40,000 nt of DNA from Cryptococcus deneoformans JEC21 (lineage: Eukaryota; Basidiomycota; Tremellomycetes; Tremellales; Cryptococcaceae): contig NC_006682.1 of the NCBI RefSeq assembly GCF_000091045.1, positions 455,001 to 495,000 on the forward strand, read 5' to 3'. Under the pieces are notes generated by a model. The model had not been told where the DNA came from and did not search any database. It was given only the letters and a program-made list of their open reading frames with translations. The position numbers and the translations under genes are program-made. Positions 7,811-37,234 of this stretch are shown in pieces. Each line of letters starts with the position of its first letter. Position 1 is the first letter of the stretch.

Positions 7811-10800
7811 ATGTTTCCCTTCGGAACGAAGGGCACAGTCGCCCCTAAGGCAAGGGAGGACCGTGACGCTATACAGTACGCAAGCTATTCCGCGCGCAAA
7901 GTCGCAAACCACGGTCCGCCTCCTTTACGAACTTACGCTGGGGAAAAGGCGGCCTATGACTTTACAGCTGGCGCAGAGGATAAGAATATCGCTGCCTCCG
8001 AAGATACAAAGGGTCGTGGAAGGTTCTTCACGACGTCAACAGGTTTATGGCAGCGGCCATCCGTGGCGAGTCCTGCTTCAACGTCATCCACCGGCGGTGG
8101 CAGTCAGTGGCCCGAAGCAAGTGCGGTGCAGTACCCTCAGCCTTCACCTGGATACGAATCTCAAGCAACTTTATTCAAGAAGCGCATTCCTACCGGTCCT
8201 GCAGCTATGGTATCACACGATACAAGGCCTATTCAATCTCTGCCTTCTGCGCAAGCGGACAGATCGAGAGATCCACGATTGACCGCTACAGATATCGCGC
8301 CTGATACTGCTTTGAAACCTGTTGAAACGCCCGAAAAACCATTAGATCCAAGACTTTACAGACCGAGCCCCTATCCACCCTCGCAACCTACCCAGTCGCC
8401 TCGCGATCTCCATCTTCCCGCACTTGAACAAAGTATCCCGTCAGCAGTACGAGAGTCAAACATATCTGCGCCTACCCTGCCCCTTCCGATGGAAAGCACT
8501 CAGAGAGCGCCGCTATGGTTTGGAATTCCTTCGAAGCCTTCGACAACCTCGTCCGCAAAAAGCGACAATAGTGCCCTCGAAAGGACGTCTGTCAAACCTA
8601 TTGCGGCAGAGAAAAGTCACGTTACAAATCCGGCCGGCGACATCAATGGGCAGCAGTTGAATCTGGAGGCGATCGCGGCCAAGGAAGGAGGGGAACAGAC
8701 CGCAATGGGCGCTTCAAAAGACACCGAGCCTGCAGCCGAGATGGTAGATGTCAAACCAACACCCGAGGAACTTGAGAAAGCAAGCAGTGCCACGATGCCC
8801 CAAGTAAGGGATGAGGATCGTTTGGAAGGATGCGTTTCATTCAGGTAAGCCGTATATTTCTTACCCCCTTAACTTTCACCTGACATATCTTTAGTCGTTC
8901 GGAGTTACCAGCCGAATACTGGTCTAAAGATGCGGTGGAACGGAGAGATTGGCGTACCAAGTTGAGAGCTGAGCAAGAGAAGGAGCTGGAGAAGATGGGG
9001 AGGAAGCTCATGAAAGGCCACTGGAGAGATGATGGTGTTGCTTTTGATTGGGTGTTGTCGCGAAATAATACTGGAACAAACGGCACAGTAAAGGATAATG
9101 AGGCGAGAGAGGTTGTTGAGGTCGCGGGGGCCACAAGCCCAAGAGCGGGCGAGCGATATAGCCAGTTCGAGGAAGAGGATTTCATCCCATTAGAGACTCA
9201 AACGACAGCTCGAAAGTTTATTGAGCCTGGCGAAATCTCGGAGCGTGCACAGAATAGTGCCACCGCCACTGACCCAACCGTCTCTGATGTGGCTGATGCC
9301 CTTCCGTCTTCCTCTCCTCAGATGCAGCAACCTAATCCAGGATCTCAATCCGGAGAAAAAGTTGGGTCGGCATCTGCGATCGCTCTTATTTCGGCTCCCG
9401 CGAAACATTCCAAGGCTGAAGCGAAATGGGGTCCTCCGATCATCGGTAAACCTCCTGCTACGGGCCCTATCAATCGAATCTATAAATATGACATCCCTGT
9501 TCCAAAAATCATGAAAGCGGGAGGTCGTTTCACGCCAGAATTTCAAGTTTGGAAGCTCCGCCATAGGGATGAAGCTAGCTGTTTGGATGCCAGGGGTTGC
9601 CCTACGCGCGAGGCCTTCCTCAACCACAACACTGCTGCCGACTGCGACATTTTGTCAATGAAGGTTGTCCCCATAGACATGAGTGACCCTGACAGCTGGC
9701 CGATGACCATGTTCCCAGAGCAAGTTTCGGTACCTATTCCAGCATCCGTCAAGCTAGGCAAAGAATTCGAAGTTTGGTCGGCGATGATTTGTGAGAGGGT
9801 CTCGGAGCCTGATTGGAAGGGAAGGCCTACAAGGTGGGTGAGATCCTTACATACGCCATCGTCGACTGCCCAGTTCAAAGTCAAATGGAGGGCGAAGACG
9901 AGGGAAGAGATTGAAAGCTACAATGGCCCAGCAATCTTTCCCAGCCAGGCGTCCCTCTTGAAGCTCGGCCAAAAAACGGTGGATATAGTGAACAACTCCT
10001 CGAGCTCGAGCATTGCGACTCCCAAAGCGGGAACGTCAGCAAAACTCAATCAAAGCCTTTTGGAGCAACAGAAGAAGCGAATGTCGAGTATGCTGGAAGC
10101 AGAGGCGGCTGAGGCCGCAAAGAGTAAGAGAAGGACGTCGGAGTCGTACTTTGAGAGGGAGTGGGATCGTGGGAAGAGGCCTGGATCGCCAGCATTCAAG
10201 GAGGGAAGGTTAAGTAAGATGCAAAAGAAGGATAAAGGGATGGACAAGAGCCGAGAACGGGACAAGGAGAAGGAGCGGGAAAGGGAGCGAGAGAGAACGA
10301 GGGACCTAGACCGAGAGAGGGAAGTGGAGCGAGTGAGGGAAAGGGAACGAGAGAGGGAAATGGATAGGGAGGCAGAAGGAGAAAAGCGGGACACGGCTTT
10401 GCAGTTGAACAGTGAAAGACGTCAATCCCCTCCGCATTATTCAAGTCAGTCAATTCCTCTCTGTATAAGAAGTCGACTGATCATTTTTAGAGTCTTCTAG
10501 GACTGTTGTATCAAACAGAATCCTGGACTTAGCTGGTGCACCACCTCCTGAATCAGCGATGTCGCCTTCTGCTAATGTTCCAGCTTTGCCTCAAGTTGTG
10601 CAAAGGGCAGACTCTGAGTCGTCCTTTGCCAGATTTGAGGTAGAAGATGTAATGACAGAATTGCATGCTTCTGAGCCGACTCATCTAATTCCCGAGGCCT
10701 CTACTGCCGCTCCATCTGTAGATCAGCCTGACCGAAGCGTTGTCGCTCCGGGCTTGTTGCCAGCACCTTCCGCGGTCTCTCACGTAACAGACTCTCACAC

Positions 10801-11044
10801 ATCATCCCCTGTTCCATCTGCTCCTCCTTTTGCTACGCAATCCGTACCTGCCATATCCTCGCGTCTTCAAGAGCTCCGCAAAAATGTCCGTCAGAAGATG
10901 ACGGAAATATCAAAATGGACGCACTTGTTGGAAGATTTCCCGGATATGGCGGAGACGGTGAACGTGCAGATACAGAGAACGCAAGATGAGATCTTCAGGT
11001 TGCATGATGTTATTAGAGAGGAGAAGGCGAAATTGCAGGATTGA
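7811..11044 (+). CDS. Family member A: large protein with WP/RWV module, RE-repeat and C-terminal coiled coil
   Basis: Product not recognised. Three exons (7811-8844, 8895-10444, 10491-11044) encode about 1045 residues. Residues 1-340 are disordered and Pro/Ser-rich, with two DPRL motifs (about 153 and 178). A module at about 540-690 carries RIYKYDIPVP, then PTRE, then SWPMTMFP, then W-(x)n-GRPTRWV and KVKW. Residues 792-845 are a dense Arg/Glu repeat. The last 60 residues are a coiled coil with KWTHLLEDFPDM and QIQR. The module and the coil recur in the genes at 16493-17794 and 35846-37234, with the same intron phases (2, then 1). A WRTKLR..WRDDGVAFDWV stretch at about 360-405 may be a second, degenerate module half. 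The gene follows a duplicated upstream cassette and an E-box. A nuclear or RNA-linked role is only a guess from the RE repeat. Gene model confidence is high; function is unknown. Confidence 0.85.
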
Positions 11045-11345
11045 ACGGGGGTTTCAAGGATGTGAGCGTTTAGTGACGACGAGGAAAAGTGGACAACACG
11101 TCCTTACACATTACGACCTTTGTTTCAGACAATTTTCATTCATTCATTCATGCTCATCATGAACGTCTCTTTCAGGATCGCGAATTATTGTATCATTAGC
11201 GCAATGATCTCATGCATGGTTTGGTTGGTTGTCACCGTTCGTTCTGATGGAACCAATGAAATTTGCATAGATGTATGTGATCTGATTTGCACCTTAGAAT
11301 TTTTGAAGTGTGTTTAGACGCAGCATTATCAACAGCGTTTCCCAT
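11045..11345. other. Convergent 3' intergenic region
   Basis: 301 bp between the stop codons of member A and the opposite-strand disordered protein. It contains a short TTCA tetranucleotide repeat (about 11136-11152) and AT-rich stretches suited to 3' end formation of both genes. No gene seen. Confidence 0.55.
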
Positions 11346-15528: not shown

Positions 15529-16067
15529 GCCCTTTGAAACCTGATCTCAAGGTCCCTTTGGGAATTTGTTGACACTTTAAGCGGTGAAAAGGTAGAAGAA
15601 AATGGTATGTCGCCTAGGATAATTGCTGACAGTTACGTGTTGCGAGACTATAAAGCCACCGATTAGCACCTGCAAGGTTAAGGAAAAGAAGCGATTCCTC
15701 CAGTCACCCACCTCGCCTTTAATGAACGCAGGCAACAGGCTTTGTCTTTATTCAGAAGCCTTTTTACAGTTAGAGCGACTAAGCATGCCCTTTTAATAGC
15801 TCTCAATCGGGGACTGGAAGGAAGAATTTGTAAAGAAAAGGTAGATCAACCGTCTGGGGGCTGAGACAACGAAGGCAAGAGGAAAACAAAATGACGGCGC
15901 GACCGCCGTCCGAGAGCCCATTAGAAAACGCGTCATTTTACTACAAAATGCTTTGTATTCTATTTTGTAATTGCTTTCTAATCCCTCCTTCAATCCAGAA
16001 ATGATGACGACACAATAATGACTCGCTGTTTCAGCCGATTCACTACTATGAGACGCGGAGCGGTTTT

Positions 16068-16318
16068 ACTCGTGGCGGAGGCTGGGCTGTGAGACCGGAG
16101 GGATGCGACCGCTGCCCAAGCTTTGGAGAAGAAGAGAAGAGGACGTTGGCCAAGTGTTGGGGAAGAAGAGGCAAGCCGGAGGATGTTTTCTTGTTGATTT
16201 GCATGAGCCGGCTGAAGGTAAATCGCCGAGGTGGAGGTTGGGCCTGGGACAAGGTGAAATGAGAGTCCGTCGGTCGGCCCAATTTTGCCGGGATTCCGAC
16301 TCCCGCATACAACGTGAG
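16068..16318 (+). repeat. Duplicated upstream cassette, copy 2 (member B)
   Basis: About 251 bp related to 6959-7222, with the same block order and the identical 22-bp core at 16150-16171. It lies 175-425 bp before the member B ATG. Within it a GA-rich unit occurs twice in tandem (16116-16149 and from 16150). Copy 1 shows a more decayed version of the same tandem (7009-7040 and from 7041). Confidence 0.75.
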
Positions 16319-16401
16319 GTCCGTGCTGGTGGCGTTTGCTCTTATTGTTTGTGTGTTTCAAAGTCGCGTTTTCTGCCTATTGTGTCTCGGGCCCTAAACA
16401 G

Positions 16402-16408
16402 TATAAAA
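16402..16408 (+). promoter_or_regulatory. TATA box of member B
   Basis: TATAAAA, 85 nt before the ATG at 16493, in the right place for a core promoter. It lies just downstream of the duplicated cassette. Confidence 0.55.
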
Positions 16409-16492
16409 GGCGCAAATGTCTATCTCTCCCTCATTATATGTATTACATTCCAAGCTGCATTCCATATGCTCACGCAAGCACCAGCTTTCGCA

Positions 16493-17794
16493 ATGGCCCA
16501 GCAACGGGTTATCAACCCCCGTCCGTGAGTCACTTCTGTACCTCAGTTACCAAAGAGAGCCAACCAAATGTTGTTCTGGCAGAGCCCAACCTATCCTCTG
16601 CTTCCCGCCTCGTGACGTTCCTATTGAGGATATATACTCTTATACCATTCCCATCCCACCCGAGTATTCCTCGGGGCAGGTAACGAAGGAATACCAAGAC
16701 TGGGAAGACAGTCAATGGATTCACGCTTCCAACCTCTCAAAGCACGGTGATCCCACACGCACTGTCGTCACTTGTCCTAGGAGAAGCACATCTGGGCACG
16801 GTGATCACCTCTCTGTAATCGTTGGTCCGCTCGTAAAGCAGGTTCCACAAAGATGGCCTAGAAAGATGTTTCGGCATGAACGATTCACGCCCTACCCTTT
16901 CTATGCTGGTAAAGATCCTCATGCTAGAGACGCGGAGATTGTTACTTGGAGAAAAAAGTTGCGTGCAAAGGCAGAAAGGAAGGATGCGAGGGGAAGGCCG
17001 CTCACTTGGGTGCAAATTGAGCCGCAAAATGATGGGGTGATGATAAGATGGAGGAATAGGCTTGGTGTGCGTAGCAGGAAGGAAGAAAAATCGCATTGCG
17101 ACGTCTCAAGAAAGAGTGGTGCGTTATTGTAAATTACAACCCAAACCTGCTCCGTGCTACCCTTTTTATTGCAGATGATACTTCCCCCAATCCCAAGACC
17201 AACCTTCCTTCCCCTGCCATTTCTCCTGCTACCGGAGAATCGGTCAAAGCCGGTTCTCATATCTCTCCATCCCTCAGTCCTACTGCCCGAAGGACACTAC
17301 TTTCCCCTTGCTCATCTCTTTCCACATCCCCTTGCTCATCTTCCGTACATTCCTCGTCATCCACAATCTCATTACAACCTCCCTCCACACCCACCGGCAT
17401 CTTATCTCCATCTCTTACCCCTTCATCATCCGCAGCACCGTCACCACTGCTTGCTCATCCATTATCTCCGTCCATCTCTGGACCTCCATCTCTCATTATC
17501 CCAGCCAGCATCCCATCCTCTATCCCTACTCCGTCCCCGTCCCCGTCTCCACCCCCCTTCCACCACTCTCTCACCTTCATTAAACCCTTCGCCGCCCAAT
17601 CACCCACAGTCTCTTCCGAAATGCATCAACAACTCACAGAACTACTTGCAAAGAAAGACGAGCAGCTCACGCAGTGGGAGAAACTGAAGGAAGAGTTTCA
17701 TAATGACCATCATATGCTGAAGGCATTTGATAACCAAATCATTAGACTTTTAAAAGAGATTGAGGAGATAAAGCAGCTTCAGAGACGGACGTAG
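16493..17794 (+). CDS. Family member B: WP/RWV module plus C-terminal coiled coil
   Basis: Product not recognised, about 395 residues. Exons are 16493-16524, 16583-17118 and 17175-17794; both introns are GT..AG, in phases 2 and 1 as in member A. The module spans about residues 26-178: DIYSYTIPIP, then YQDWEDSQWIHAS, PTRTVV, a VIVGPL strand, RWPRKMF, W-RKKL, and GRPLTWV followed by MIRWRNRL. A long Ser/Pro linker (about 200-320) leads to a coiled coil in the last 55 residues with a KKDEQLTQWEKLKEEF signature. Members A and C have the same arrangement; C is of similar length, while A is much longer. The ATG at 16493 was chosen because the 32-nt first exon splices cleanly and is preceded by a TATA box. 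An upstream ATG at 16416 opens a different frame and would skip the first intron. Confidence 0.88.
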
Positions 17795-18218: not shown

Positions 18219-21200
18219 TTAGATCTTAACCATTAACCAATTTGGTTTTTCGACATTGGAACGTAATTTTTCGGAACCCTGCCTTGGTTCGAGCATTACT
18301 GCAGTTTTCATCAGTTTATCGGCTTTTGGCCAAAAAAAAAAGCACGACTTACAGCTCTTGCGGTATAAAGCATCGATAGAACCGCTCCCTCTCTCTGTAA
18401 GTACAGTATGCAAAAACGTTTGTACAGCTTCAAGCTCGTGGAAATTGAACGGCTATAATTATACCCATGTCAATATGCCGCTCACAGGTTTGAACCTGAG
18501 AATGGACATACCTCTTGATACCTTCTAAACTCTATCGCAATCTTTCCCAGTTTGGCGAACTTGTCGTAATTGATGAGCATCAGATCCGGCGCCGAGTTGC
18601 TTGGTCGGGTGGTAGGATTACCGTCCGAAGTGAAGGTGATACTAGTATGCCGGAATGTGGTTAGTCAGAAATCTTGGGGAAAAAACCAAGACGGGAAAAC
18701 ATACTCTGTGAGGATGAGACCTAGGAAAGGCAAACAAGGAGTCGGAGCTTGCCTCAAACGAGCGCGGTAGGCTGCATGATTCTATCGCGAATATCAGCAA
18801 CCATTCAAGACATAAGTCATCTAGATGTACCTTGGTATGCTCGATGATTCCACGTAACCTTTCAATCAAGATCTTATACTTTACCGACAAAGCCTGAAAT
18901 CTATTAGCAGTCGCTCATTGAACAGAATCGAAGACGAGCGACTTACATCCCAAGTTTTTTTCAACCTCAGAATAGTACTGCTATTCAGCCCTCCAAGCAC
19001 CGCAAACATCGTAAAAAAATTGTTGATCAACAGGCATTTCTAACAATCTCATCAGTCACACAGTCTCACGCCATGAATGAGAAATCTCACATCAGCCAGC
19101 TTGATGAAAAACTTCAACAACCCCGCTCTTCGCTTCGCATCTCCCTCATTCAAAATACTATCCGCCACCCAGCCTGTCACCTGATTTGAATGCGTGCTCA
19201 ACGCTTTCAGCTCTGGTACCGTCTTTTTCCCTGTCATCAACAATTCTTCAGGCTCGAGTTGGCGGAACATCTTGGAGACGATGATCGTTAACTGACGGGC
19301 GAGCTCAAGCGTGTCGAATTCGGTGATATGGATATGGGTAGAAGACGAAGAGGAGGAAGAGGACGCGGCTGTCGATTTTTTTAGGAGCGAATGGAGGTTC
19401 TTGGAGATGATGGGGGTAGGTGGGAGACCGCTGACGGCAGGTGGATGGAGAGTAGCTGAGCTAGCCGAAGTTGGACCATTCATAGATTCCCTCTTCCTCT
19501 TCTCATCCTCTCCACCGTCCTTCTTCCTCTGCACCAGGTTGATTAAGCGTTCACCCATCACCGGCAGACTACCAGCCATTTCTTCCCTTCCAAACTTTTC
19601 CAAGTCATTGAGGATGACATTATCCACCTCGGGCTGCCAGTGAAATTCAAGCCATGTACGGAGGAAGTTGAAGATCCTTATGCGGATCGGTAAGACCTTG
19701 GCCTCCCTCCAGACAGCTTCGTCCTTTTCACTCAACAATAGTTCTTCGGGAGGGGAGATGAACCATCGTTCTTGTACAGCCTCCAACAGATCCACGGGAG
19801 TGGTGAATAACCTAAAGGTGTAGAAAAAGGTGGCGCTGAAGCTAGAATCGACAGGTCCATCGTGCGGTGTCATCTTCTCTACCAATACCGCCAATGAGGC
19901 GCCCACCATATTTCCATCGGGATTATATGTGATATCGGCAGGCGAGTACGTAGGAGATCGAATGAGGTAAGAGATATCGCCCACAGGTACTGGCATCGGG
20001 GATGTTTGAGTACGGAGGACAGGTGGGCGGGAAGTTAATGTTTTCAGAGTTGTACTCGAACCAGCAGTAGAAACAGACTCCTCGGCAGGATTCTGAAGTG
20101 ATAGCTCTGACATTTGATTGGATATACCCTTAGGGATAACGACTCGTAATGATTCATGAGGCGACTTTCGGTTCTTTACAGGCGTACTCTGATCACCATT
20201 TTCGGAAGCAGACTTGGCAGAGGAGTCTGTATGGGTGAGAGAGGGTAAAGAAGAGACCGAAGTGAACATCGATAATCGGCTCGAGGCCGCCGTCACATTC
20301 CCACTTGCTTCCCATCTATCCTTGGCCTCCCCAGCTTCTCTGGGCTTCGCATCCGTACCGAGCTTGAGATCCTCACCGCTTGTAAACTTGTCCAAATCCG
20401 CAGATTTGGAAGGTGAACGGTGACCCATATGCCCGATGCGGGGGGTAGGCGAAGTTGAGAGACTCGTTGAACGAACTCTGGGACCGCGACGGCCTGTTTC
20501 GGAGAAGCCACGGAGGAGCTCGCCAGACGGACGACGGGGACGGGGAGTGGGGTACAGTTGGACTTCTTGAGAGGAGGGATCGGGGCTTGGCTATTATGGT
20601 AATGTTAGTGACAGGTTCAAACACCATGAGAGAGGAGTAATTTACAGGGAACGTGACGCCCTGAGAAGGTCGCGCTGTCATATCTTCCTCCTTCTCATCG
20701 ATAACTTCCTCTTCCTCTTCTTCGTCCTCTTGTCTAGATTCATTTTGCAGTGCACCGTAAAATCGCCCCTGAACCATCCCTCCATCTTCCATAAACCTCT
20801 TTTGCAGATGATCCAGACTTGTCGCTTTTCGATGCAAACTGGACAATGTATGTGGACCTCTGACGCCAACAGTTCTATCTCTTTCCATGACGGGGTTATC
20901 GAAATTTATTCTTGGGGTAAGCTGCTGTCTACCACCAGAGGCGGTTGGGGCACTTTGTTTAGGGGTATCGTTGAAGTGGATAGTCTCATCTTCCGGTACG
21001 CATATCCTTACTAGTCGCACACACTCTGTTCCGGCTCTCAGAGTCCCTGTGGCCGCACCCAACAATCCGGCCTTTTCCTTTTCGTACCCTTCCTCCACCA
21101 CTTCTTCAAACGGCGCATTTGCTACGATCTCTGCACTCTCCACTAACCGTCCTGCAACATCGTAAAGGCGATCTTTGGCGACACGAAGACTTTCAATTTC

Positions 21201-22794
21201 CTTGGGCCGCTTGGACCGGATACATGTGTTACGACCGACTGTTTCGACTGCGGTGAGGAGAGTGCGGACGGCATCGATGGTCTCACGGGTCATTTCAATC
21301 AGCGTAGAATGGGAAGAAGGGTGTGAGTGGATGTGATGAGAATGGATATGGCCGATGAAGGCGGCAATGATGGAGAGAAGGGTATCTTCAGCGTATGAGA
21401 TGCGCAAATGAATGTCAGCGATAGAGTTGCCACAGGGCGTTGACGGTTGTACGGCAGCGGTAGAAACAGATGTCCGATCTTCCCATGGGGAATGCGTATC
21501 TTCAGAAGTAGCCGTGCTACCGTGGCTAAAGACACTATCCATACTGCCCTGGATCCGATGTTCGAATGGTCGGGAAGATATAGGGGAGGAGACATCTGAA
21601 AAGGATGCAGAAATGGGGGTGTTAGCCTTGGACGCAGTTCGGGTGTGGGCGTGTTTTGATGATTGCGAAGAGCCAGTCGGGAGGGGAGGTGGACTTTCCG
21701 AACGTTGTTTGGCTGCGCGTAAATCGCCGATACTCGCGACACGTTTTTGAAACGTCTCTTGAAGACGAGCATTGCTCCCCGGTGATGCTCTGGATTTGGC
21801 GGGAGCATTGACTAGAGCCGACACTGAGGCGATCTCACTTGATGAAGACGATGACACGGACATGGGCACACCTTCGTTCTGTGTGTCTAGGGTTACTTGA
21901 ACACCGCATTGATGTGCAAGGTTGAGGAACCGTTTGACACTTTGAAAAACACCTCGGGCGGATTTGGCGAGTTCTTCCATGTCTTCCATCTCTCCTCCAG
22001 GGCTAGAATCACCCGCCGACTCCGTCATCCCACTTGCAGTGCGTGCACATCCTACTAGCCTAGACAGCTCTACAAGCACTACTTTTCGTTCCTTGGCCAA
22101 GACCGGCCATGACATCAGCGTTCGCGATTCTTTGCTCAAGCAGTCTGTTTGGGACAGTGCTGCTCTGATAGCGGAGATAACACAGGCCGTAGATGGTTGG
22201 ATATGTGACTTGCGGTTGTTGTGTATAGCCGTGTCCAGCAGAGACAGCGATTGGACAATAGGTTGTATGAGGATTTGGAAAGCTGCTGGTAGGGGTGCAA
22301 TGTCCGTACGAGGGGAAGTGAGAATCTGGGAGATGGAAGAGCTGGAAGCATTAGATTGATGAGAAGCGACGGAACCGTGCCGAGAATGGGTACCCTTGTA
22401 TGGCGATTTGGGACTCGTTACGGACATGCTCGATTCGGATCGCCTGTGCGTCTGTAAAAATGTTCAGCACGGGCCTTGAAGTGACTCATCCGAGAACGCT
22501 CACAGGGTCCCACTCGATTTCCCTTATGTAGTTGCTCGGAAACCATCCTCTTCTTAGTGTTCTCCCGTCATTGTCGGCAGCGACCTTACTCGTAATTTCT
22601 CCGTCCCACCAACCGGTCGGATCGCGTACATGGACTCTGATAATTTCTCCGGCCTTGAAGCTAAGGTACAGATTTGAGTTTGAAGAGGAGGTGGAAGCAA
22701 GGAGAGAGGGATCAAAGTCATGTATGGCCTGGGCGTGCGAGAACTTTGGAGATGCTGATATGGGAGACGTTGGTGTTGACTGTCGGTCCGTCAT
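18219..22794 (-). CDS. CDC25: Ras guanine nucleotide exchange factor, Cdc25 type (SH3, RasGEF_N, RasGEF)
   Basis: Promotes GDP/GTP exchange on Ras at membranes, upstream of cAMP signalling in fungi. Nine exons on the minus strand (22794-22504, 22451-20646, 20590-19091, 19039-18947, 18893-18831, 18781-18705, 18641-18512, 18452-18353, 18298-18219) give about 1379 residues. An SH3 domain (about 18-95) shows AIHDFDP, the GWWDGE tryptophans and the PSNY motif. After a long disordered linker comes the RasGEF_N domain (about 925-1040, FFYTFRLFTTPVDLLEAV). The catalytic RasGEF domain (about 1119-1360) shows FFIKLADKCLLINNFF, GGLNSSTILRLKKTWD, HTKNHAAYRARLR, PCLPFLGLILTDITF, SDGNP and LINYDKFAKL. This is the standard fungal domain order. 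It shares a 382-bp divergent promoter region with FAB1. Confidence 0.95.
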
Positions 22795-23176
22795 CGCGTC
22801 CTAAAATGTGTGAGCCGTGAAGTGCGTTGGCAGGGGCATGAGGGTGCTTACGGTGAGGCATCGGGTGGCGAATGGAATTTGAGCGCGGGGGGATGAGTCG
22901 ACTTTAGTCCGGGTAGGAAGGAGGAAGGAAGAAAGGCAGGAAAGTTGGTGGGAAGGAAGAACGGAAGGACACACTGTCAACAACTGTACGAACGAAACAA
23001 ACCGCGTCGCGTGGCTGCTGCGGAGAAATCCATGATCCCACGTGGACATCGCGTGGCTCTCACCTATCGCAGGCTAATTATGACTTCACGCCTTGCGCAT
23101 CAGCCTGTCCGTCCTCAACCATATATCGAGCGCCGATAGCGCATTTTAACACACTCAAATGGTATAACACATAATA
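22795..23176. promoter_or_regulatory. Divergent promoter region, Ras GEF / FAB1
   Basis: 382 bp head-to-head spacer. It has a CACGTG E-box core at 23039-23044 and a second near-match just after (CGCGTG). No gene seen. Confidence 0.5.
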
Positions 23177-26100
23177 ATGGACTCGCCCCGCCGCAACATG
23201 CACGGCCTTCCGCCCACCTGCCTCGCTCACCTCAAGGCGCTCCTCCATCAGTGGCTCACACAGCAGACGGCCCCCACGGGCGACTCTAAATTGTGGTCAG
23301 ACGAACGAGTAGCCCAGATAGAGAGGGCAATATGGGAAGGTGCAGTATTGACTTCGGCGGAAAGAGGATCAAGGCGGGAGAGCGGTATCCTCGAGCAAAA
23401 TTGGGAAGGTTGGATAGGTGGGTCGACAAAGAGGAAGAGTCTATGGAGGGAAGAAACGCGGCAAGAGGAAGAGAAAATCAAGGAAGATGAAAAGACCAAG
23501 GCGCATGCTTCGAGAAAGTCTTCAATGGGCGACGAAGACAGAGGAAGACTGAGTTTGCTGGTTATGCAAGCTGGATCGGCGGCATCAACACCCAGCAAAG
23601 CCAGTACGCGAGCTTCGTCCGTTGCTTCAACCGAACGTCGCCAAGGCACAGATAATGCGCCTCAAGATGTCAACAAGGAGAAAACTCTCGAACAGTCTGA
23701 CAAGGGAAAACTGCAAGAATGGTGTCGCATCGTCAGCACTCTTGATGGGTATGAACCTTTATCACTGGCCAAAACAGACGATTGGGAAGATGTCAACAGT
23801 ATGGCTTACATTCCATTACTTACAACCTATAAGCACGCTCACAACATATGCAGTCGATCGAGTACCCAAGTCCACACATCAAGATATCCCAGGCTCATTC
23901 CCTCAATCAGGCGTCTCTATTGAATACCGCCATTCTCTGGACAACCCATCACAATCCAAAGGCACCTTCTCCACCCTAGGTCTTCCTTCCTCTCCGCCAA
24001 AGCACGACCCTTCTAACAAATCGTACGACCTCCTTAAACCCGTCTTCTGCCTGCATTTTCCCACTTCTCACTCTTCTTATACTAGTGCTAAAGGGCACGT
24101 ACACAAGGAAGGCAGTCAGTCGACAATTCGGATAAGACGTGATCCATCACTTTCTGCACGATCGGCGGGCAGTGCAGGGTCGAGTCGATGGTGGGGTTCG
24201 GGGAATAAATGGGGGGATATACTCGGGGGTCCTTTACTGCAAGATGAAGGGGAGAGGATTGAGGTAGATTTTGTGCAGGGTAAGTTTGCGTTACCCTTCG
24301 ACTTGTTTGATTACCCCGCCTTGGAACGACAAGGGAGTAAAAAGGGGAGAGCAACTCAGAGAAAAAGGAGACGATCAATCTTCTCGGCCTTGGAAGTTGT
24401 CTCATCTTCGCTCTCGACAAATAGTTCATTACCATCCGAATCTACGTCGGATACTACTTCTGAGGCCGACTCTGGACTGTCAGATACGGATACAGACGAT
24501 GAACAATCAGGAAAAGAAGTAAAACGTCGAATACCTAGACGTCGACATCGACCGCTCAGCTTGATACTTAGTGGCGCGGAAGACGATATCCCTCGGTCAG
24601 CTGCTGAACGAGGTAAGATGCGGCTCGTTGGTGGGACCATCGTTGTAAGAGGTCTTCGAGGCGGGGAAAGGAAAGGTCTCGGAGAAGTTTTGAAAGCGCT
24701 CGTGAGTTAATCCAGTGGTGATATGCAAGATGCAGGGTGCTGATAGGACAAAGATATGGACGATAGGAATGATGAAGCTCGAACTCGATCTTTACACAGC
24801 TTTCCGCCTCCCACAAGAACCTGACCCACCTACCACCCCCGCCCTCTGCGCTTCATCCTCAGTCCCACTGACCTTACCAGCCCTTTCCCCTCAAACGTCA
24901 TCCAACCCTACTCCTCGTCCTTCCGGTGAAGTTTCTCGGAGCAATTCGTTGCGAGATAAAGACCTTTCATGGGGGCGGGAAAGTCGGAACGAGAAGAAGG
25001 GGTTTTTATCTAGGTTGGGTAGGGATACGAAAGGTGTGTGGAATGGTTTGTTGGGACGGAAAAGGTCTGCGAGAGATAAGGCTCGTGGTCAGTCCGGCGT
25101 GGAAGGAGAAGTGTATACAAGTCCTATACTTTCGCCTACCCTGCCCTCGGAATCTTCTCCTTCCTTGCCGCTGTTCCCAAGTCAGCCCTCGAGCTCCCAT
25201 CATCACTCCCCATCCCACTCTTCATCTTCTTCCCCTTTTCCAAGATTCAAGTATTCCTCTCACCCAAAAGATCCCAGCCCGGACTCCAACCCTTCTCTTC
25301 ACACCAACCCCAACATTAACACAGATGCTAATGCTAATGCCAATACCAATGCCAACCCACCTTCTCAACACCTCCAAACCCTCTCTTCCCTCTGTACTCT
25401 TCTCCCATCCTCGACCCCTGGCCTCAAATATCCTATGCCGCCTATCCTTCTGCGGATACAGGAGGAAGAACGGATCCGGCGGGAAAAAACCCAGAAAGAG
25501 ATTTTGACTATGAGCGAAAATAGCAGCGGCAGTGGAAATGCAAATGGAAATATGTTGAGAGGAAAAGCGATGGCATATAGACCCGGAGGGGATGTACGTT
25601 CCGGTCTACATGTTTTGGCAGTTGGGATGGATACCCTCGCGGGGTGGACGAGGTTGCAGCTTTTATGCGTGCTATACTGTGTCGGTCTACCGCCACCTAT
25701 TTCCGGATCTAATTCAGGGTCAATTGCCAATGAGGGAGCGCAACTAGGTGAAGATGGGAATGGAGAAGTGGACGAAGAAAAGGGTGATGAAGGAGAGATA
25801 TGTGAATCCCCACAAGCACAAATTATACCACCTACACTGACCATCCGGGATTACTTGCAACATCTTGGAGAAGAGTTGGGAGAGAATCTGCTCTGTACGA
25901 GGAGTGGGTGTGAGAAGGAGGTGGGGCAGCATGTGAGGTGGTATGTACATGCTGGGGTGAAGGTGGGAGTGAGGGTTGAGAATGTAAAGGTGAGGGAAGA
26001 TGGAGGCAGGGATGAGGATGGGGAGCGCGAGGACGAGGACGAAGGGGCCGTTGCAGGGAAGGCTGAGGATGGGAGGGATGTAGAAGGGTGGGTCAAGTGT

Positions 26101-29100
26101 ACGGTGTGTAGAGAAGAGAGTGAACCTCGTCAGCTTGGAGAAGGTGCCCTGTGAGTCTTTTACTCCCTTGTCCTTGACACAAGCTAACATAAACTCCAGA
26201 GCATATCCATGGTCAAAACTTCTCGAACTTTTGATATACACGCCCCATCTCCAGCCACCCATCTGCCCCCACCACACCACCCCCCACGCATATATCACAC
26301 TCTTCCGTACATCCTCCTATACGGCGTCACTCACGTCATCGCCTGTGAAGTTGTATGATATAAGATTGCCCAAATTGCAGATAGGGCCAAATGTACCGAA
26401 GCGCAAAGTTGGTGGGGGACGCCAAGGGATGGGCTTGATGATGGATGATGCAAAAGAGGGAGAAAATGGGTTGAAGAGGGAGGTGGAAAGGTGGTGTGAG
26501 GCTCTGGAAAATCGTATTGATATTATGGTACATCTTCATCTTCATCTTCAACAATGGATTGGGCGTTCGCTGACTTCATCGACAGAGGGAGAAGATTGAA
26601 AGAGAGTATGAAGCCGCTAAAGAGCTCTCCGAAGGATCCGAAAAAACCGGGCCAGGTTTACAAGAAAAGTTTGATACCCTCTTGAGCCTGTCCACCGACT
26701 TTGCGGCCTTCAAAAACAACTTGCTCGAAAGCATCTCTTCCACTCCACAAGGTCTCTTTAATGACCTCCGTATATCATTTTCGGCGTTCATCAGATCAAG
26801 TCTTTCGGAGATTGAGGCATGGGAGAAGAAATATTTACCAGAGAATGCGGACGAGGGGTTGGAAGCACTGAAGGAAATGATACCAGAATATGCTAAAGAA
26901 GGAGGAAGGGTGCATGCGCTTCCGGGAAGCGGTGTACTGGTAAGGGAGGATGAGCCAGCGAGCGTTGTCGCGTATACTCTTTCGCAAGTCGATTTAAATA
27001 TCCAGGTCATTGCGTTTGGAGATGCTAATGGAATTAATAGGTCCCTGGCGTACTTAATCGAACTGACTAACACTTCAAAACCCCCGGACGCCTCCAACCC
27101 TGTTACGGCCACCACCACCCCTAGAGATCCAATTGACTCTTCTATTCCTACAGCTCCAACTACAGGCGCTAATACTCCCACGTCCGCCTCAACTCCTTCA
27201 GGCGGTGGGTGGTCAACCAAAATTGATCATCGTGATTCCCCCCGAGATCTCCTCTCTCTCCGTTCCATTGTCAAGAAGAAATCTGATGCATCAGTATCAC
27301 TTGACAAAGCAAAGTCCACCCCTCCAGCCTTGGGTCTTTCCGCCTTATCTAGCGGCGCGCCAAGTTTAGAGCTCAATCTTGAAAAGGTGGAAGGGGTCTC
27401 AGAAGGAGCGGAAAGCGGAGATAGGATGGAGGAGATCGCCAAAGCTGTTGGTAAGGCCACGGGACAGGAAATGACTCTGGGAACCACGACCGCATATGCA
27501 GACCCCAACAGTCTGAGTAGGAGAGCGAGTATGACGGAAAGCGATACCAGTAGCTTGTCCGGCGTTCGCTTGTCATCCCAAATGGCCAAGAGCTCGCAGG
27601 CCCCACCCAGTAGTTTTCGATCCTTTAGAAGTGTTTCAAATACCCCCCTATCCCGTTCACCTATGTCACCTTTACCGACTGCTACAGAGTCTACTGCCTC
27701 AGGCGCTAGAACAGCAAGCACACTCTCTCCCAATACAGCCACTAGTCCTGGAGGGAGAGATTCTTCATGGGACTCTGTCACATCTTCGTTTGCCAATTCG
27801 GTGAACAGTCTCTGGAAACTTGGTTCGGAGATGGGTGAGACGATTTCTTCCATGCGATCTCGCCCACGAGATCGGTCCCTACAATCACTCATGGGACCTC
27901 TGTCTTCTATGGATAATTCTTTATCTACCCTCTCACCCCGTCCTCATCTCCATTTTACCTACGCCTTCGCCCATAAGCTCCGACTATCCTGTACAGTTTA
28001 TTTTGCGACTGCCTTCGACTCATTAAGGAGAAGGTGTGCGATAGACAAGGTGCTAGTCCAAAGTCTCCAGAGGACCGAAGTATGGGATGCACAAGGCGGG
28101 AAGAGTAAAGCGGGCTTCTGGATGACGGAAGATAAGAGGTTTATTGTGAAGGAGCTGTTGAGCAAATGGACTGTCAGTGATATGTGAGTGGACTTCCTGG
28201 CAGTATAAATGAGTGATGGCTGATGTTAGGACAGGCACGCATTGCTGGAGATTTCACCTGCATACTTCCACCATATGGCAGGGACTCATAACAGGGCCAC
28301 AGCTTTAGCCAAAATTGTAGGATTTTATACAGGTGAGCCTATTAATCATATAAACTTGGGATAGACACTAGAAATAGTCAACAGTGACTATCAAGGACTC
28401 CCAATCTGGCCAAAAACGACAACTTGACTTGCTCGTCATGGAGAACCTTTTTCACAATCAAAGCATCTCGAAAACCTTTGATCTCAAAGGCATTGGTCGG
28501 TTCCATTTGTTTATCAGTATTCATCTGTCTGTTTGTACTGACTTGTAGGTTTAGAGGGTAGACGAGTAGCCAAAACAAAAGACGGGGTTCAAGAGGTAAA
28601 GTTGGGGACAACGATGTTTGATGCGGATTGGTTGGAAGGGATGCAGAAAGGTCTCGTTCTACTTCAACCACGCAAGTGTATATTTTCTTCGGCTTCATAG
28701 CATCACCGCTAAATTTTGCATAGACGCCAAACGCATCCTTTTAGATGCCATCTCTCTCGATACAAGATTTCTTTCCTCACAATCTATAATGGACTACTCA
28801 CTGTTACTCGGCGTCGACACCCGCTCCTCTCTGTTAACTTCTTTAAATATCTCTGAGGACAAAGTGGAGCAAGAGAGGGAAAATGGGCTGCTGATTGTAG
28901 GACTTGTGGACGCCATCGGGAGTTTCAACCTCTTCAAAACCATTGAGAGTAGAGGGAAGATGGTTATGAATCGCGGTGGGGACGTCACCGTTGTAAGTTC
29001 CTTCTTTGCCACTCTTGTAGTTTTGAAAATTGGACTACGATCCTGACGGAGAGCCCATTTATGTAGATTCCTCCAGACCAATATCGCGAACGCTTCGAGA

Positions 29101-29201
29101 ACGCTATCCGGCACTATTTCGTGGCCTGCCCCGACAAGTGGTCGAAAGTATCTAGAAAAGTCGGGGGTTTAACCGGGTGCGAGGTGAGCTCAGTATTATA
29201 A
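23177..29201 (+). CDS. FAB1: 1-phosphatidylinositol-3-phosphate 5-kinase (Fab1/PIKfyve type), no FYVE finger
   Basis: Makes PI(3,5)P2 on vacuolar and endosomal membranes. Ten exons (23177-23798, 23854-24701, 24754-26150, 26200-26527, 26586-28183, 28235-28332, 28385-28495, 28555-28671, 28724-28992, 29067-29201) give about 1840 residues. The cysteine-rich Fab1 region is at about 836-1000: a CTRSGCEK pair, HVRWYVHAGV, CTVCREESE, YPWSKLLELLIY. The kinase domain is at about 1520-1840: KAGFWMTEDKRFIVKE with the ATP-site lysine, MENLF, FDLKG, IMDYSLLLG, and VGLVDAIG with the metal-binding Asp. The N-terminal residues show no FYVE cysteines, and a chaperonin-like domain is not obvious. The intron after residue 28671 begins with GC. 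The splice at 28496-28554 has an alternative reading. The orthology rests mainly on the kinase and cysteine-rich regions. Confidence 0.92.
28672..28723 (+). other. GC-AG intron in FAB1
   Basis: 52 nt with donor GCAAGT and acceptor TAG. Only this splice joins LLQP to HAKRILLDA in frame and keeps the conserved kinase sequence. The nearby GT (28677) would shift the frame. Confidence 0.8.
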
Positions 29202-29898
29202 ATTGTCATTTAAGGCCTTGAAAGGACAAATGGGAGCTGCGAATAGAGGGGGGCGAAACATTTTATAATGTCTCAATTTGTGCAAACTCTGCTGATTGCA
29301 ATATAACTATTATACGAATCCACAAGAAACTGGTTACGAACAGCCTTTTCACGATAATCTGTATCTAGCTGTAACGACCTACTATGTATCCTCGGGCGAT
29401 GAAAGTCAAATAAATGTTCTGCCATTACTGATCGTCATAATCGTTATATCGATCCAATGAAAAAATGCATTAGAAATTGAAGAGAATTTGGGAGCAAAAG
29501 GCTTGACAGACATTCTTTCTTGACTTCTTCAAGATGTACCCATACAAGTACTACGTGTACAAGAAGAAAGCCTCGAAAAGAAGAGTAAGTGAATAAGAGT
29601 ATGTTGCTATATGCATTAACATGATTAGATTGGTAAAGAATTTGCTAGTAACTGTTTTCTCTTTTTTTTCCTTTCTTTTTTTGAGAGGACAAATGCAAAT
29701 GTTAAAATGAAAAAATATGAAGGTAAGATTAAATGCTGTAATGCAGTATGTAGTGATTGGGGTGGTTGTCATTATAATCGTGAAAAGTGAAATTTCCCAG
29801 AAAAAGAAGCACCAGCTTTCTGGGTTTTGACTTCACAAAAGCTTCAAATTGTCCGTTTGATTCCGATTCCCCCTTGGGTTTTCAGCTCAGCTCATCTC
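29202..29898. other. Convergent 3' intergenic region
   Basis: 697 AT-rich bases between the stop codons of FAB1 and the opposite-strand coiled-coil gene. A long pyrimidine tract lies near 29660-29685. Apart from long 3' UTRs I see no gene. Confidence 0.5.
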
Positions 29899-32070: not shown

Positions 32071-33366
32071 GGATAGTCATGTAGTGTTATGTTTATGTTG
32101 ATGTTGTTAGGGATGTTTGTTGTTGGAGGGGTGGGAGAGGGCTGGTCGTTGTAAAAGAGCGAATATGAGTGGGTAATGCCTGTGGGAGACCAGATCAATG
32201 TGTTCTACCTTGTTCCCCGAATTTATCTGGGGGCCATTGGAATATTTGGTGTGGACAGAGAATATACACCCGACTGTTGTCCCCCTAAACTCTCGTCTCC
32301 AGTGCTCCATTATCACTTACGTAAATCACCTTGACTTTCGGGATAACCCGCAAGAAATCAGGCGCGACCCTTATAATGACGTGGATTCCCCTTAGCTACC
32401 CACCATTTCTTTTCCATTAGTAGCTCATTTTTCGAGCATGCATACATACCATTTGTTGCGAATTTGAAAGAGAAGGATCGGGGATCGATAATCGTACATC
32501 CGGGAAACGATAGGACGTGCCGAGTGGCAGCTGTGTGAATGTGAACGATTGGCCTTTCAATTCGCCCTTCTAATCGATACCCGCCGGAAACTGAACGAAG
32601 TCCATTAATATTCTAAGTTGCTGGCGCCGGTGGGTGCAATTTTTTCGCAGTAGTTCAGAATGTAAATTTTCTTGGTACGGGTACCATGCACCCCCAATCG
32701 AACTTGACTGACACATGTAAAGCCAGTCGTATCTTGAATCACCATTAATTCAGACAATATATCATGCATTATCAGCTAGCACCACTCTCCTCCTCCAGCC
32801 AAACAACAGCGCACATAAGTCTTCATCAACGATTCTACGCATACTATCATCACATCCCTATCAAGTCCTTTATTTACCCAGCTGAACCCACCTTTGTACC
32901 TATCTACCATCCTTCCTTTGTCTATCGAAGCCAAAAGGGGAAGTGCACTGGACTTTTTGAATAGGGTCTGTGAGGAGGATAGATGTGATGCATGGAAGGG
33001 AGGATCCTTTTTACGATACCCAGAGGCGGTTGTATTTCATGGGAAGAAGTATATATTTAAAGAGGTGTAGGGGCTTTGGGTTTCCAGTCAAGAAAATAGA
33101 TTACCATCCTCATTGAAAGTATGGAGGAAGTAATAGGAAACTAAGCGGAGATAAGAAGCAATAAAGAACCGGTGGACTGGACCTAGGCGGCGTCAGAAGG
33201 TTGAACAACGGAAAACCGATCGAATATTCTTCATCTAACAGGCAGATGCCCATATCCGGCCATCCATTGCCAGCGAAGAAAGCTCGATTAAGGCTGCCAA
33301 AGTGGTCAGTTTTCTGGAGAAAGAACAGCTACACTTCTAGCCACGTTGGACACACACATCAGCAAG
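32071..33366. other. 1.3-kb divergent intergenic region
   Basis: Head-to-head spacer between the coiled-coil gene and the C2H2 gene. The left end (about 32071-32200) is an A/C-rich 5' leader of the left gene when read on the minus strand. There is a TGGTAC-GG-GTACCA inverted repeat at 32673-32686 and a TATA-like run near 33050. Short open frames at 32764-32964 and 33201-33398 have no supporting features. Confidence 0.5.
32673..32686. promoter_or_regulatory. Inverted repeat TGGTAC-N2-GTACCA
   Basis: Perfect 6-bp arms separated by GG in the middle of a long divergent promoter region. It could be a dimeric factor site. Nothing else supports this. Confidence 0.3.
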
Positions 33367-35672
33367 ATGCCTCGAAATATTATCGATACAGCTCGTGATG
33401 ACTACGATGATTATGACCATCATTACTCCGCACCCGAACAGTCTTGTAAGTGTCACAGACTTCCCTTCTTATCACCTCTTCCTTCGTCCCTCATCTTTTG
33501 ATTGTGCGCATGTCAAGATCAGACAGCGATGCCCCTCTCTTTGCTTTTTCTGTGACACTTACGCTGAAGAACGCGACAATGCTGCGCATGCGCTTGTTAC
33601 CATTGAGCCCGTAGAGTTTGATTTAAGTAGCCTTACTTTCCGCTTACCTTCCTCCCTTTCACGCCTCTCGCGCCAACCCACCACTGACTCTTTTCTCAGT
33701 CTCGGGCCACTACCCAGCTCACTTTCACCGAGCCTATCAGCCAAAGCACAGATACTATCACCACCCATACGCTCGCCATATTCCTTACTCTGCTGCTACT
33801 CCTCCTTCTCCTCTGCATTCGTCCCACCGAATGGATGGGAGAGAAGCAAGATTCGATTATTATGATGATCACTCTCCCTATCCTCCTCCTCTATCGCATC
33901 GTCCTCGAGTCTCACCTTTGCAAGTCCTCCAATCTCAAGTAAAATCCCCTTCTTCTTTGTCTCAGTTGCAAAATCAAAATCACGTTTATGATGTTCGTGT
34001 TGGCAGTGGTGATGGCAAGAAGCAAAGTGCACATAAACCTGCGTCCGCAACCGCACCCGCGTCCAAACCGTCGTCCAGCCGGTATCAACTCTCACGGGGT
34101 GCACAGAGGGATGCAAAGCATTCGCAGAGGGTACATCTCCAGATTCAGAGGTCGTATGCTGATAGTAAGGCGAAAAAGGAAGACAATAAGAAGGCAAAAA
34201 AAATCGCTCGACCTGTTGTTAATGATCTATACAAACCAAAGACCGACGATGAGCAGTCTAAAACTCTTCTGACCCGTCTCCTTCTTGCTCTTCCCTACCA
34301 CCGTCCTCCTCCCCTTCCTCCTCCAATGCAAGGTCTAGACCTCGAGATAATCAGGAGGGAACAGCAGCGGGCGATGGAAGAAGCAAGGCGACAACTGATA
34401 GAACGGGTGGAAAAGGAAAAAGAGAAGGAGAAAGTCGCGTCGAGGAAGATTGTTAACATTCAACTGCAGGTCTTTGTTCATGCACGGTAAGTTACAGGGT
34501 CGCCATATCCCTCCTCCTTCTCATTATTGCCAAAATAAAACGTGACGAATCCCATCAAACCTCTGACTTTTCGCTTCATTAGGGAAACACGATGCCACTG
34601 GGGAAAATGTGAAGCCATCCTCAATTCATGGGCCGTCCTCGAGAAACATATCTTCCAATCACATTTCCACCCTAACCGAACCCTCCCCGAGATGGTAGTG
34701 AATGGCGAGAGGAAAATTCGGTGTTTGTGGGGAGATGGGGAGTGCCAAGAGGCGTTTGGAACGAGAAACGAGCTGCATCAGCACGTGTTGGTTTTGCATA
34801 TGAAGTTTGTTTCGGCGAGATGTCCTTTTGGCGGTAAGTTCCAAGGACCTTTTGGATGAATGGAATATGATGTGGCAAAATAAAGTCGGGAGGCTGAGGG
34901 CTGATATTCTTGCTTTGAATGGATAGGATGCGAATATAACGGACATGACTTTAACCAGTTCATGCAGCACGTCAATCTCATTCATTCTACCGCCACACCA
35001 GATGACTTTATCCCCGGCCTCGTCCATTTTCGTCCTTCCCTTCCATCATCTTCTCCATCCCTCATTCACCCCCTTCCATCCGAACCTCTTCCAGCATACG
35101 GACCCCTCACCCAGACCGTCGCACTTTCATCCTACAAAGCGCCAGGTAGTAGGATGAAGAAATGGGTCAGCAGACGATGTCGGTCGGGCAAGTGGCCGAG
35201 GATGCATGCGGGTTCCGTGAGGTATGAAGTCAAAAAGGGGGCACAGGTGGCGATAAAGGCGTATACGGATAATGCGAGGAGTGTGAGGTTGGGTCTGCCC
35301 CCGGCGAGTGAGAAGGAAGCTAATGGAGAGATGGAGAAGATGAAAGAGGCAAAAGAAGAAGTCGAAAAGGAAGCGGAGGTGGCCAAGTCCAAGCCCGAAT
35401 CTGGAGGGTTGGTTGTCACCGTCTCGAGCCGAGATCTAACTCCGTCCACTTTTATAAACCCCTCATCAAACTCTTCACCTTTAAATAAATGCCGACAAGA
35501 CAAAACATGTCTTGTGATTTCACCTTCAATATCTTTATCGGGTGACAGCGACCAAGCACCCGTGAGCGATGATTATGTTGACTCGGCAAATTCGATAAAT
35601 AGTTTGAATAGCAAGATGAGCCAGGGCACAAGGTTCAGCGAGCGGCTAAAAAGGAAGATGGCTTCCCTTTGA
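33367..35672 (+). CDS. Three-finger C2H2 protein with CxW-type zinc fingers
   Basis: A likely nucleic-acid-binding nuclear protein of about 620 residues. Exons are 33367-33445, 33700-34486, 34583-34833 and 34927-35672. The N-terminus is rich in Asp, Tyr and His; a charged helix (about 245-285, RREQQRAMEEARRQLIERVEKEK) precedes the fingers. Finger 1 uses Cys293, Cys298, His311 and His316. Finger 2 uses Cys336, Cys343, His356 and His361. Finger 3 uses Cys369, Cys374, His387 and His392. Fingers 1 and 2 have Trp two residues after the first Cys, as in the Gli, Zic and AEBP2 finger class. After the fingers comes a basic patch (RMKKWVSRRCRSGKWPR) and a disordered tail. Introns are long here (254, 96 and 93 nt), and the first starts with an inverted-repeat arm. 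Specific orthology is not assigned. Confidence 0.85.
33446..33562 (+). repeat. 14-bp inverted repeat beginning exactly at a 5' splice site
   Basis: The first arm, GTAAGTGTCACAGA, occupies 33446-33459 and is the first 14 nt of intron 1 of the C2H2 gene. The second arm at 33549-33562 is its perfect complement. The loop is 89 nt. No target-site duplication is evident beside the 117-bp unit. Confidence 0.8.
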
Positions 35673-35845
35673 TGTACCGAGTCATGACTGTAAATGGGTT
35701 GTACGGCGTAGTAAAGTTTTGATACCATCACCGATATCTAATATATGTAGTGTTTCTCATTAACTGTTGACTTCATTTGATGCAGAGAAGACGGAAATAC
35801 CAGTCAACTTTACATCAGCCCTTAAAAAGGATGACTGGCAACTTG
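35673..35845. other. Short convergent 3' intergenic region
   Basis: 173 AT-rich bases between the stop codons of the C2H2 gene and member C. No gene seen. Confidence 0.5.
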
Positions 35846-37234
35846 CTAGCTCTGGCATCCTGATACTTTTTGAAGCTCCATCTCAAGGTTCTGAAGCTCC
35901 CGTTCATTCCTCTCAATTTGCATCGTAAACGTGCTGCTCATAGATGGGAACTCCTCCATCAATGCTCTCCAGCTTTGCAGCTGCTTTTTTTTGTCTATGA
36001 TTCGTGATTTGATTAGATCGAGAGAGGCCTTCGTGGTATCCACGGGGACTGAGAGAGAGGGAGATCGGAATGAGGGAGGTATTTGAGAATGCAGATCATT
36101 TGTGGAAATGTTCAGAGAGGAAGGCTGGGCTCCGTCTGTTGGATTGTTGAGCATGATACATGGTTTGATGCCTGACAGTGGGAATGTCGTGGTGGGTCTG
36201 CCTTGAAAATCGTCTGATGACGGCTGTTGTCCCGGTCCATCGGACAGCCTTGGGCGCTTTACCACATTTGAAGTGTATGACAGACGAGGGTCCACTGGCC
36301 TCTGAATATCCATTATTGGTCTTTTTTTGGCTGTAAGGATGGTGGAAATGGCTCTTTCGATTCTATCTGGACTGTGTCTCAGTACAGCTGTGCAGAAGGG
36401 AAATATTAGTCTTTTGAATTATGTCATCAGTTGGGAAATGCTTACCAGAAAACTTAGGCAATGTGCTCTCCCGGGGTGAAGCCGCAAGCATGGTGGTCTC
36501 TAACGTCGAACCCGCATGGGTAGATTGCGAATCTTCGAAGGATGTCAGGTGCTGGTGGGCGGGCATCCCTAGCTTGGAAGTACTCACCACGGTCGTTATA
36601 GAATACTGATGGAGATACCCCTGATATGGCAGGCGTTTTCGACAAGCTCTCCTCTTCTATGACATCCTGCGGTTTTTCTTTGACCCATACCACCAGTCCT
36701 TTCTTCGACGCACTTGTCTTGACCCATCTCTTGGTTCTTCCCCACTGATCCTTACCCTCAAATCCCTCTTTCACCTTTGCGTCCCATTGATTAAAAATTT
36801 CCTTATTATAATTCCTCTTGTGCCACTTTGCCCATTCGGCTTTCGGATAAGGGACGATTAGATGTGGGATGCCCCAAAGCCGCACAGGCCATTTTGTGGA
36901 ATCGTGACTCTTTAATGGCGAAACAGTGATGTGTAGTACAGCATTTTGACCCTTAGCTATCTTCCCTGCTCGCCGGATTGTTACATCCCGGGTTGGCAGA
37001 CCTCGTGAATCAAGTAATGATGCCTTGATCCATTCGTTGGTTTGCAAGATATCAAATTGAGGGGATGTAATGTCTGATGGGACCTTGACAGCGTATTTGA
37101 ACGTTGAATATATCCTTCCGTGATTTGGGGGTTGTCTCTCTATGATCTTTGAGTTTTTCGAACTGCTGGCATAAGACAGGTCAGGATTGGCCGCACGGGT
37201 AATGGTTACAAATGTCTGGAGGAACGTACCTCAT
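35846..37234 (-). CDS. Family member C: WP/RWV module plus C-terminal coiled coil
   Basis: Product not recognised, about 403 residues. Exons on the minus strand: 37234-37230, 37165-36588, 36532-36446 and 36387-35846. The first exon is only 5 nt (ATGAG), joined through a 64-nt GT..AG intron with a CTGAC branch point. Without this splice the frame has no upstream ATG. The module spans about residues 19-166: RIYSTFKYAVKVP, NEWIKAS, LPTRDV, LHITVSP, KWPVRLW, VPYP, W-DAKVKE, and GRTKRWV followed by LVVWV. Then comes a Ser-rich linker with a DPRL motif (about 256). The last 60 residues form a coiled coil with KKKQLQSWRALMEEFPSM and QIERNERELQNLE. Intron phases run 2, 1, 1. It is the family member closest in length to B. 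It shares a divergent promoter region with the Rictor-like gene. Confidence 0.83.

Follow-up and report, generated by a model that had tools for sequence, protein, structure and literature searches.

Predicted proteins of a small, fast-evolving family in Cryptococcus and Kwoniella carry a tandem ~75-residue unit and a C-terminal coil-like region

The window analyzed here is a 40,000-nucleotide stretch of Cryptococcus deneoformans JEC21 (NC_006682.1, positions 455,001 to 495,000; C13:455001-495000 in the assembly searched, C13 having 787,999 bases). It codes for three predicted proteins, A, B, and C, which by sequence comparison are a real, small, and fast-evolving family, detected in Cryptococcus and Kwoniella only. 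All three share a module of ~150 residues and a C-terminal coil at levels exceeding shuffled controls. As judged by profile alignment, the module is a tandem duplication of a ~75-residue unit and not a single domain, and A is the conserved long member of the family, with B and C as short, basic, and divergent forms. Three protein searches returned 24 distinct proteins, P0001 to P0024, of which P0018 corresponds to an exon of gene A in the window itself. Gene models rebuilt with the GT-AG splice consensus give 1045, 395, and 403 residues, reproducing the lengths in an earlier reading of this DNA made from the sequence alone (the sequence-only reading).

7811..11044, plus strand: gene A, 1045 residues; introns 8845-8894 and 10445-10490; splice consensus and full-length relatives P0008-P0017
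16493..17794, plus strand: gene B, 395 residues; introns 16525-16582 and 17119-17174; splice consensus and relative P0004
35846..37234, minus strand: gene C, 403 residues; exons 37234-37230, 37165-36588, 36532-36446, and 36387-35846; splice consensus and relatives P0002 and P0003

Smith-Waterman scores for the modules are 151 (A/B), 124 (A/C), and 132 (B/C), against shuffle maxima of 56, 61, and 61 (2000 shuffles per pair), and the coils score 69, 85, and 55 for the same pairs, with shuffle maxima of 59, 51, and 54. Searches of the assembly (19,051,922 bases in 14 contigs) with each of the three modules return three places, namely A, B, and C, with cross-matches at E values of 1.4e-13 to 5.7e-8. 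The A and C coils also find each other (E = 6.6e-4 with A as the query and 1.7e-4 with C), with nothing further at E ≤ 10. We note that 40,000 of the 160,000 flanking bases read N and that similar stretches may occur elsewhere in the assembly, such that every statement that something occurs only here refers to readable sequence. A fourth locus was not found by single-protein searches of the readable portion of the 19.05-Mb assembly, and module, unit, and coil profile scans of the 160-kb flanks pass only A, B, and C. One coil-profile match (L006, E = 0.015) was rejected as a member, being a 22-residue match to the profile start that is taken as chance. The three-member paralogous family proposed by the sequence-only reading is thus upheld within readable sequence. 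The ordered motifs that it listed are present overall, with two local departures: the WI-x-AS seen in B and C is replaced by RDEAS in A, and C has FKY for IYxY.

The tandem organization of the module is most evident in profile comparisons. Over ten modules, unit 1 aligns with unit 2 at an hhalign probability of 95.8 (E = 6.8e-9), compared with E = 0.24 for a reversed unit 2, 0.036 or worse for 20 column shuffles, and 0.32 for the coil. Unit 1 of the A line also matches unit 2 of B/C (1.6e-6), as does unit 1 of B/C that of the A line (6e-5). Half-against-half comparison within single sequences, run on ten modules, is strongest in A (57, against a maximum of 48 over 2000 shuffles) and K. shivajii P0011 (92, against 66), and is weaker in the other eight: 7 to 31 of 2000 shuffles are equally good in P0008 to P0010, the result is not significant in C (132 of 2000), P0002 (206), and P0012 (216), and the signal is absent in B (1966 of 2000 as good) and P0004 (1364 of 2000). 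A unit profile built from these ten modules, all of which are among the 27 proteins scanned with it (P0001 to P0024 plus A, B, and C), finds two units in 19, one in seven, and none in one, P0024, which is an exon-1 fragment. The single-unit proteins are the fragments P0005 to P0007 and the full-length A-type Kwoniella proteins P0013 to P0016. The ~150-residue module of the sequence-only reading stands as a shared region but is composed of two units, with four full-length Kwoniella relatives holding one. We note that the number of units varies within the family in this way. In the unit 2 motif D-x-x-G-R-x-x-x-W, the D, G, R, and W do not vary across the 23 aligned rows, several of which are near-copies, and these residues are kept even in proteins lacking unit 1, for which reason unit 2 is likely the working part.

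9469..9696, plus strand: unit 1 of the A module (residues 537-612), predicted beta-alpha-beta-beta; unit hidden Markov model (HMM), AlphaFold2 model
9697..9930, plus strand: unit 2 of the A module (residues 613-690), with D-x-x-G-R-x-x-x-W; alignment, AlphaFold2 model, unit HMM
16623..16850, plus strand: unit 1 of the B module (residues 25-100); unit HMM
16854..17075, plus strand: unit 2 of the B module (residues 102-175), basic, net +12 as cut for the charge calculation; charge count, unit HMM
36892..37116, minus strand: unit 1 of the C module (residues 19-93); AlphaFold2 model, unit HMM
36661..36891, minus strand: unit 2 of the C module (residues 94-170); AlphaFold2 model, unit HMM

The C-terminal coiled coil of the sequence-only reading is consistent with the heptad contrast, which exceeds that of most shuffles in the three window proteins; equally good shuffles number 9 for A, 4 for B, and 2 for C out of 300, with 0 for P0008 and 2 for P0012. 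A coil profile matches the 13 proteins having the C terminus, these being the same 13 used to build it, and F-P-D splits the coil into two stretches in 10 of the 13 aligned.

10823..11041, plus strand: C-terminal coil of A (residues 973-1045); coil HMM, and an own-genome search that reaches the C coil at 6.6e-4
17579..17791, plus strand: C-terminal coil of B (residues 325-395); pairwise scores, coil HMM
35852..36076, minus strand: C-terminal coil of C (residues 328-402); pairwise scores, own-genome search, coil HMM

Several observations weigh against the reading proposed below, in which A, B, and C use a common coil and unit pair. With B and C alone, unit 1 and unit 2 no longer match (hhalign E = 0.36), the B/C coil pair by itself barely exceeds chance (55 against a top shuffle of 54), and the B coil goes undetected when the genome is searched with those of A and C. 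The heptad test used a tryptophan setting of our own choosing, and its signal is weaker in P0009 (12 of 300 shuffles equal) and P0011 (22 of 300). In P0006, a relative of C, the reading frame departs from that of C within the coil, which may mean that the coil is not essential or that the gene is decaying there. P0006, from the C. neoformans LQV05 annotation, is annotated only from mid-module, and its frame change may reflect real decay or a sequencing error.

The three proteins are not equivalent. Ten of the 24 proteins (P0008 to P0017), from Cryptococcus and Kwoniella, are full-length A-type proteins that share with A, in order, the N-terminal blocks or variants of them, one or two units, and the coil. 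The first block reads ED-x-D...GPP...T and the second W ... HWRDDGVAFDW, with RWMSDGVA-x-DW in P0009, P0010, and P0017; an own-genome search found no other copy of the second block in the readable assembly. B and C lack both blocks and keep the unit pair and the coil. The sequence-only reading had grouped the three as one family; the shared regions remain, but A is better described as a conserved long form with ten full-length relatives and B and C as short forms.

8895..9051, plus strand: conserved block of A only (RSELP..W ... GRK..KGHWRDDGVAFDW); alignment, and an own-genome search finding this place only; coordinates rechecked

Eleven of the 24 proteins carry a species name, and all of these are Cryptococcus or Kwoniella; two of the three protein searches scored only the ~8000 candidates sharing most words, with length limits applied, and absence elsewhere is not implied. 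Module identity is 79 to 88% between A and P0019 to P0023, 81% between C and P0002, and 61% between B and P0004. P0001 matches B, and P0003 matches C, at 99%, so both probably derive from the same species as the window. In a midpoint-rooted tree built on 15 of the 23 rows, from which near-copies, fragments, and proteins with a single unit had been removed, the nine Cryptococcus A-type rows group together with support of 92/94, and B plus C lie beside them with 81/80; both values are below the starred level, and long branches meet. This fits, but does not show, a duplication predating the split of the sampled Cryptococcus species, and of the old duplication and fast divergence put forward in the sequence-only reading, the divergence is supported and the age suggested.

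Local duplication within the region is the simplest origin for A, B, and C, because three loci placed at random in a 19-Mb genome would be very unlikely to lie within 30 kb. The copies sit on both strands with other genes between them, and an all-versus-all BLASTP comparison of the 389 window open reading frames (ORFs) of at least 50 residues found no segmental duplication; beyond A/B/C, it gave one pair that stems from the repeat and three others that match weakly (E = 0.002, 0.003, and 0.010). The DNA upstream of A and B has 182 columns in common at 68.7% identity, and a copied promoter was considered and rejected, as the A-side sequence is a dispersed repeat with 26 rows in the genome search, counting its own place; a pair of these rows, at C7:910 kb, may represent a single copy. 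The A-side element (6740-7223) resembles a miniature inverted-repeat transposable element and ends ~590 bases before the A start codon, and a diverged relative (16068-16239) lies ~250 bases before that of B. The repeat ends are of the type TGTCACG...CGTGACA, with small variations, in ten loci compared (L020-L029), and target duplications of ~5 bases are seen by eye (GAGAA at 6740-7223); the latter copy is without ~134 bases present inside nine other copies compared. No comparable sequence was found upstream of C, where the best match is 13 bases (E = 0.086). From these sequence features the A/B upstream repeat is mobile-element-like and, being a dispersed transposon-like element, is no evidence on gene duplication.

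AlphaFold2 models of the A and C modules predict beta-alpha-beta-beta twice, with predicted local distance difference test values of 87.9 and 84.2, and the equal order of strands and helices in the two models argues for one shared fold in A and C. Neither model has a significant match in the PDB by Foldseek (best E = 0.31 for A and 0.35 for C) or VIA-align, nor does that of A among viral models, and the lack of a significant PDB match does not make the predicted fold new. Tests against S6/ferredoxin-like and RepE winged-helix folds gave only weak matches to the two models, none of them significant. The sequence-only reading recognized no named domain, and this agrees with our searches: none of A (scanned in three exon pieces), B, and C passes a Pfam cutoff, the five relatives scanned reach none in NCBIfam, and a PDB sequence search gave nothing under E = 0.1 (best, 0.13). 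Among nine relatives scanned, PF24999 (LAMB4) scores 22.5 to 25.0 bits on the coils of four Kwoniella proteins, with a cutoff of 27; one of them, P0016, carries a precomputed PF24999.2 label, and our own scan places it on the coil at 25.0 bits, below 27. In the searches made, we thus found no characterized family to which these sequences match.

As the likeliest of the readings considered, we tentatively propose, with less than even confidence, that A is a nuclear adaptor and that B and C are trimmed forms sharing its coil and its partner. A would be a dimerizing, partly disordered protein in which the unit pair serves to bind a partner, either protein or nucleic acid, and the coil brings two subunits together; its nuclear placement is suggested by long RE/RD- and K-rich charged stretches that are probably disordered. 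Through the same coil and unit pair, B and C would either join A or compete for its partner, without the N-terminal functions of A. In a more specific version, which we regard as doubtful, B and C would be natural antagonists of A, with mixed dimers formed via the coil holding the partner-binding unit pair without the N-terminal working parts of A, and the unit would be an undescribed ~75-residue beta-alpha-beta-beta repeat restricted to Cryptococcus and Kwoniella.

It is conceivable, if on the unlikely side, that the unit pair is instead a nucleic-acid-binding domain, with A, B, and C acting as regulators that bind DNA or RNA. The modules of B and C are strongly basic (net +10 and +14, pI ~10), unit 2 has a conserved G-R-x-x-x-W loop, and the database name of P0011 is "Myb-like domain-containing." However, the net charge of the module is +3 in A, +1 in P0011, and 0 in P0012, and charge is not a family trait; because of this difference between A and the other two window proteins, general nucleic-acid binding is not expected to be one either, but is possible for B and C. 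Moreover, Pfam Myb gives no match up to E = 1 in P0008 to P0016 or in A, B, and C, and the A and C modules, which the models cover (P0011 is not among them), are predicted to be mixed alpha/beta rather than the three helices of Myb. Somewhat less probable still is that A alone is functional, with B and C being decaying duplicates kept by chance. Their very long stems in the tree (1.42 and 1.91 changes per column), their identity of 61% to P0004 and 81% to P0002, respectively, and the loss of the coil frame in P0006 would fit such decay, but in P0004 (the B relative) and in both P0002 and the shorter P0003 (C relatives) the module frame stays open and the invariant residues are preserved, and the splice sites and coils of B and C are intact in the window.

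A link to the Set1/Swd2 (WDR82) transcription machinery, drawn by analogy with SET1A, is improbable. One report describes a DPR motif of SET1A as required for WDR82 binding (PMC9911701). A and P0008 each have two copies of DPR[LIVM], where shuffles expect 0.08 and 0.05, and C and the B relative P0004 have one each, where 0.02 is expected for both. Nevertheless, a three-residue motif is weak evidence, and it is present in only two of the 11 full-length A-type proteins (A and P0008; the other nine are without it) and in none of the window's B, the six Kwoniella proteins, and P0006, which is the only C relative reaching that region.

8270..8281, plus strand: DPRL motif 1 in A (residue 154); motif count against shuffles
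8345..8356, plus strand: DPRL motif 2 in A (residue 179); motif count against shuffles
36281..36292, minus strand: DPRL motif in C (residue 256); motif count against shuffles

Families that are lineage restricted and fast evolving escape domain-based annotation, and they are among the places in which medically relevant fungi differ from model yeasts. The present family combines a defined unit, some residues of which are invariant, with a long conserved member and two trimmed copies nearby, and makes a compact system for asking if short paralogues interfere with the parent protein.

The neighboring genes had been described as conserved and single copy, which holds in part; the gene at 23168-29300 codes for a PIP5K-family kinase, and three loci of this kind, on C1, C4, and C13, were detected in the assembly. 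Its identification as FAB1 (CNAG_01209) was dropped, as coatomer epsilon (CNAG_01211, a weak match) maps near C4:900-910 kb, where there is also a different PIP5K locus; the C4 locus fits FAB1 through this weakly matched coatomer neighbor. The region at 38908-39504 codes for the N terminus of a RICTOR homologue (E = 2.7e-25 for RICTOR_N) that probably continues beyond the window, and on the minus strand at 19052-22463 an ORF with RasGEF_N and RasGEF adjoins one with a DUF7783 match (E = 2.9e-12), the two probably being one gene. Beside C, 33627-35672 codes for a basic protein with a C2H2-like finger by eye; the two ORFs scanned there have no Pfam match up to E = 0.01.

Candidate public identifiers were also set aside. 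CNM01520 (chaperone) and CNM01530 (YPD1), from literature with the CNM015 prefix, are not A, B, or C, and the guessed CNAG_0614x/0615x neighbors include subunits of the 26S protease and of an NADH oxidoreductase, as well as CNAG_06144, described as a "cytoplasmic protein," which could not be placed. Searches of one open-access literature library, made without established public identifiers for A, B, and C, gave no paper on CNM014, CNM016, Rictor, or fast-evolving Cryptococcus paralogues, and did not find the family described.

Compared with known systems, the N-terminal DPR motif of SET1A is matched by DPRL in A and C and in one relative of B, but it is not conserved across the family. The structures of ribosomal protein S6, the IF3 C-terminal domain, and RepE show a likeness to the predicted fold that is too weak for kinship, with no sequence match found. 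The coil-like PF24999 (LAMB4) is approached by the coils of four Kwoniella proteins, short of its cutoff, and by none of A, B, and C. The A-type relatives P0008 to P0017 bear database names that are uncharacterized, hypothetical, or, once (P0011), Myb-like, and among them the Kwoniella proteins P0013 to P0016 differ from A in having one unit.

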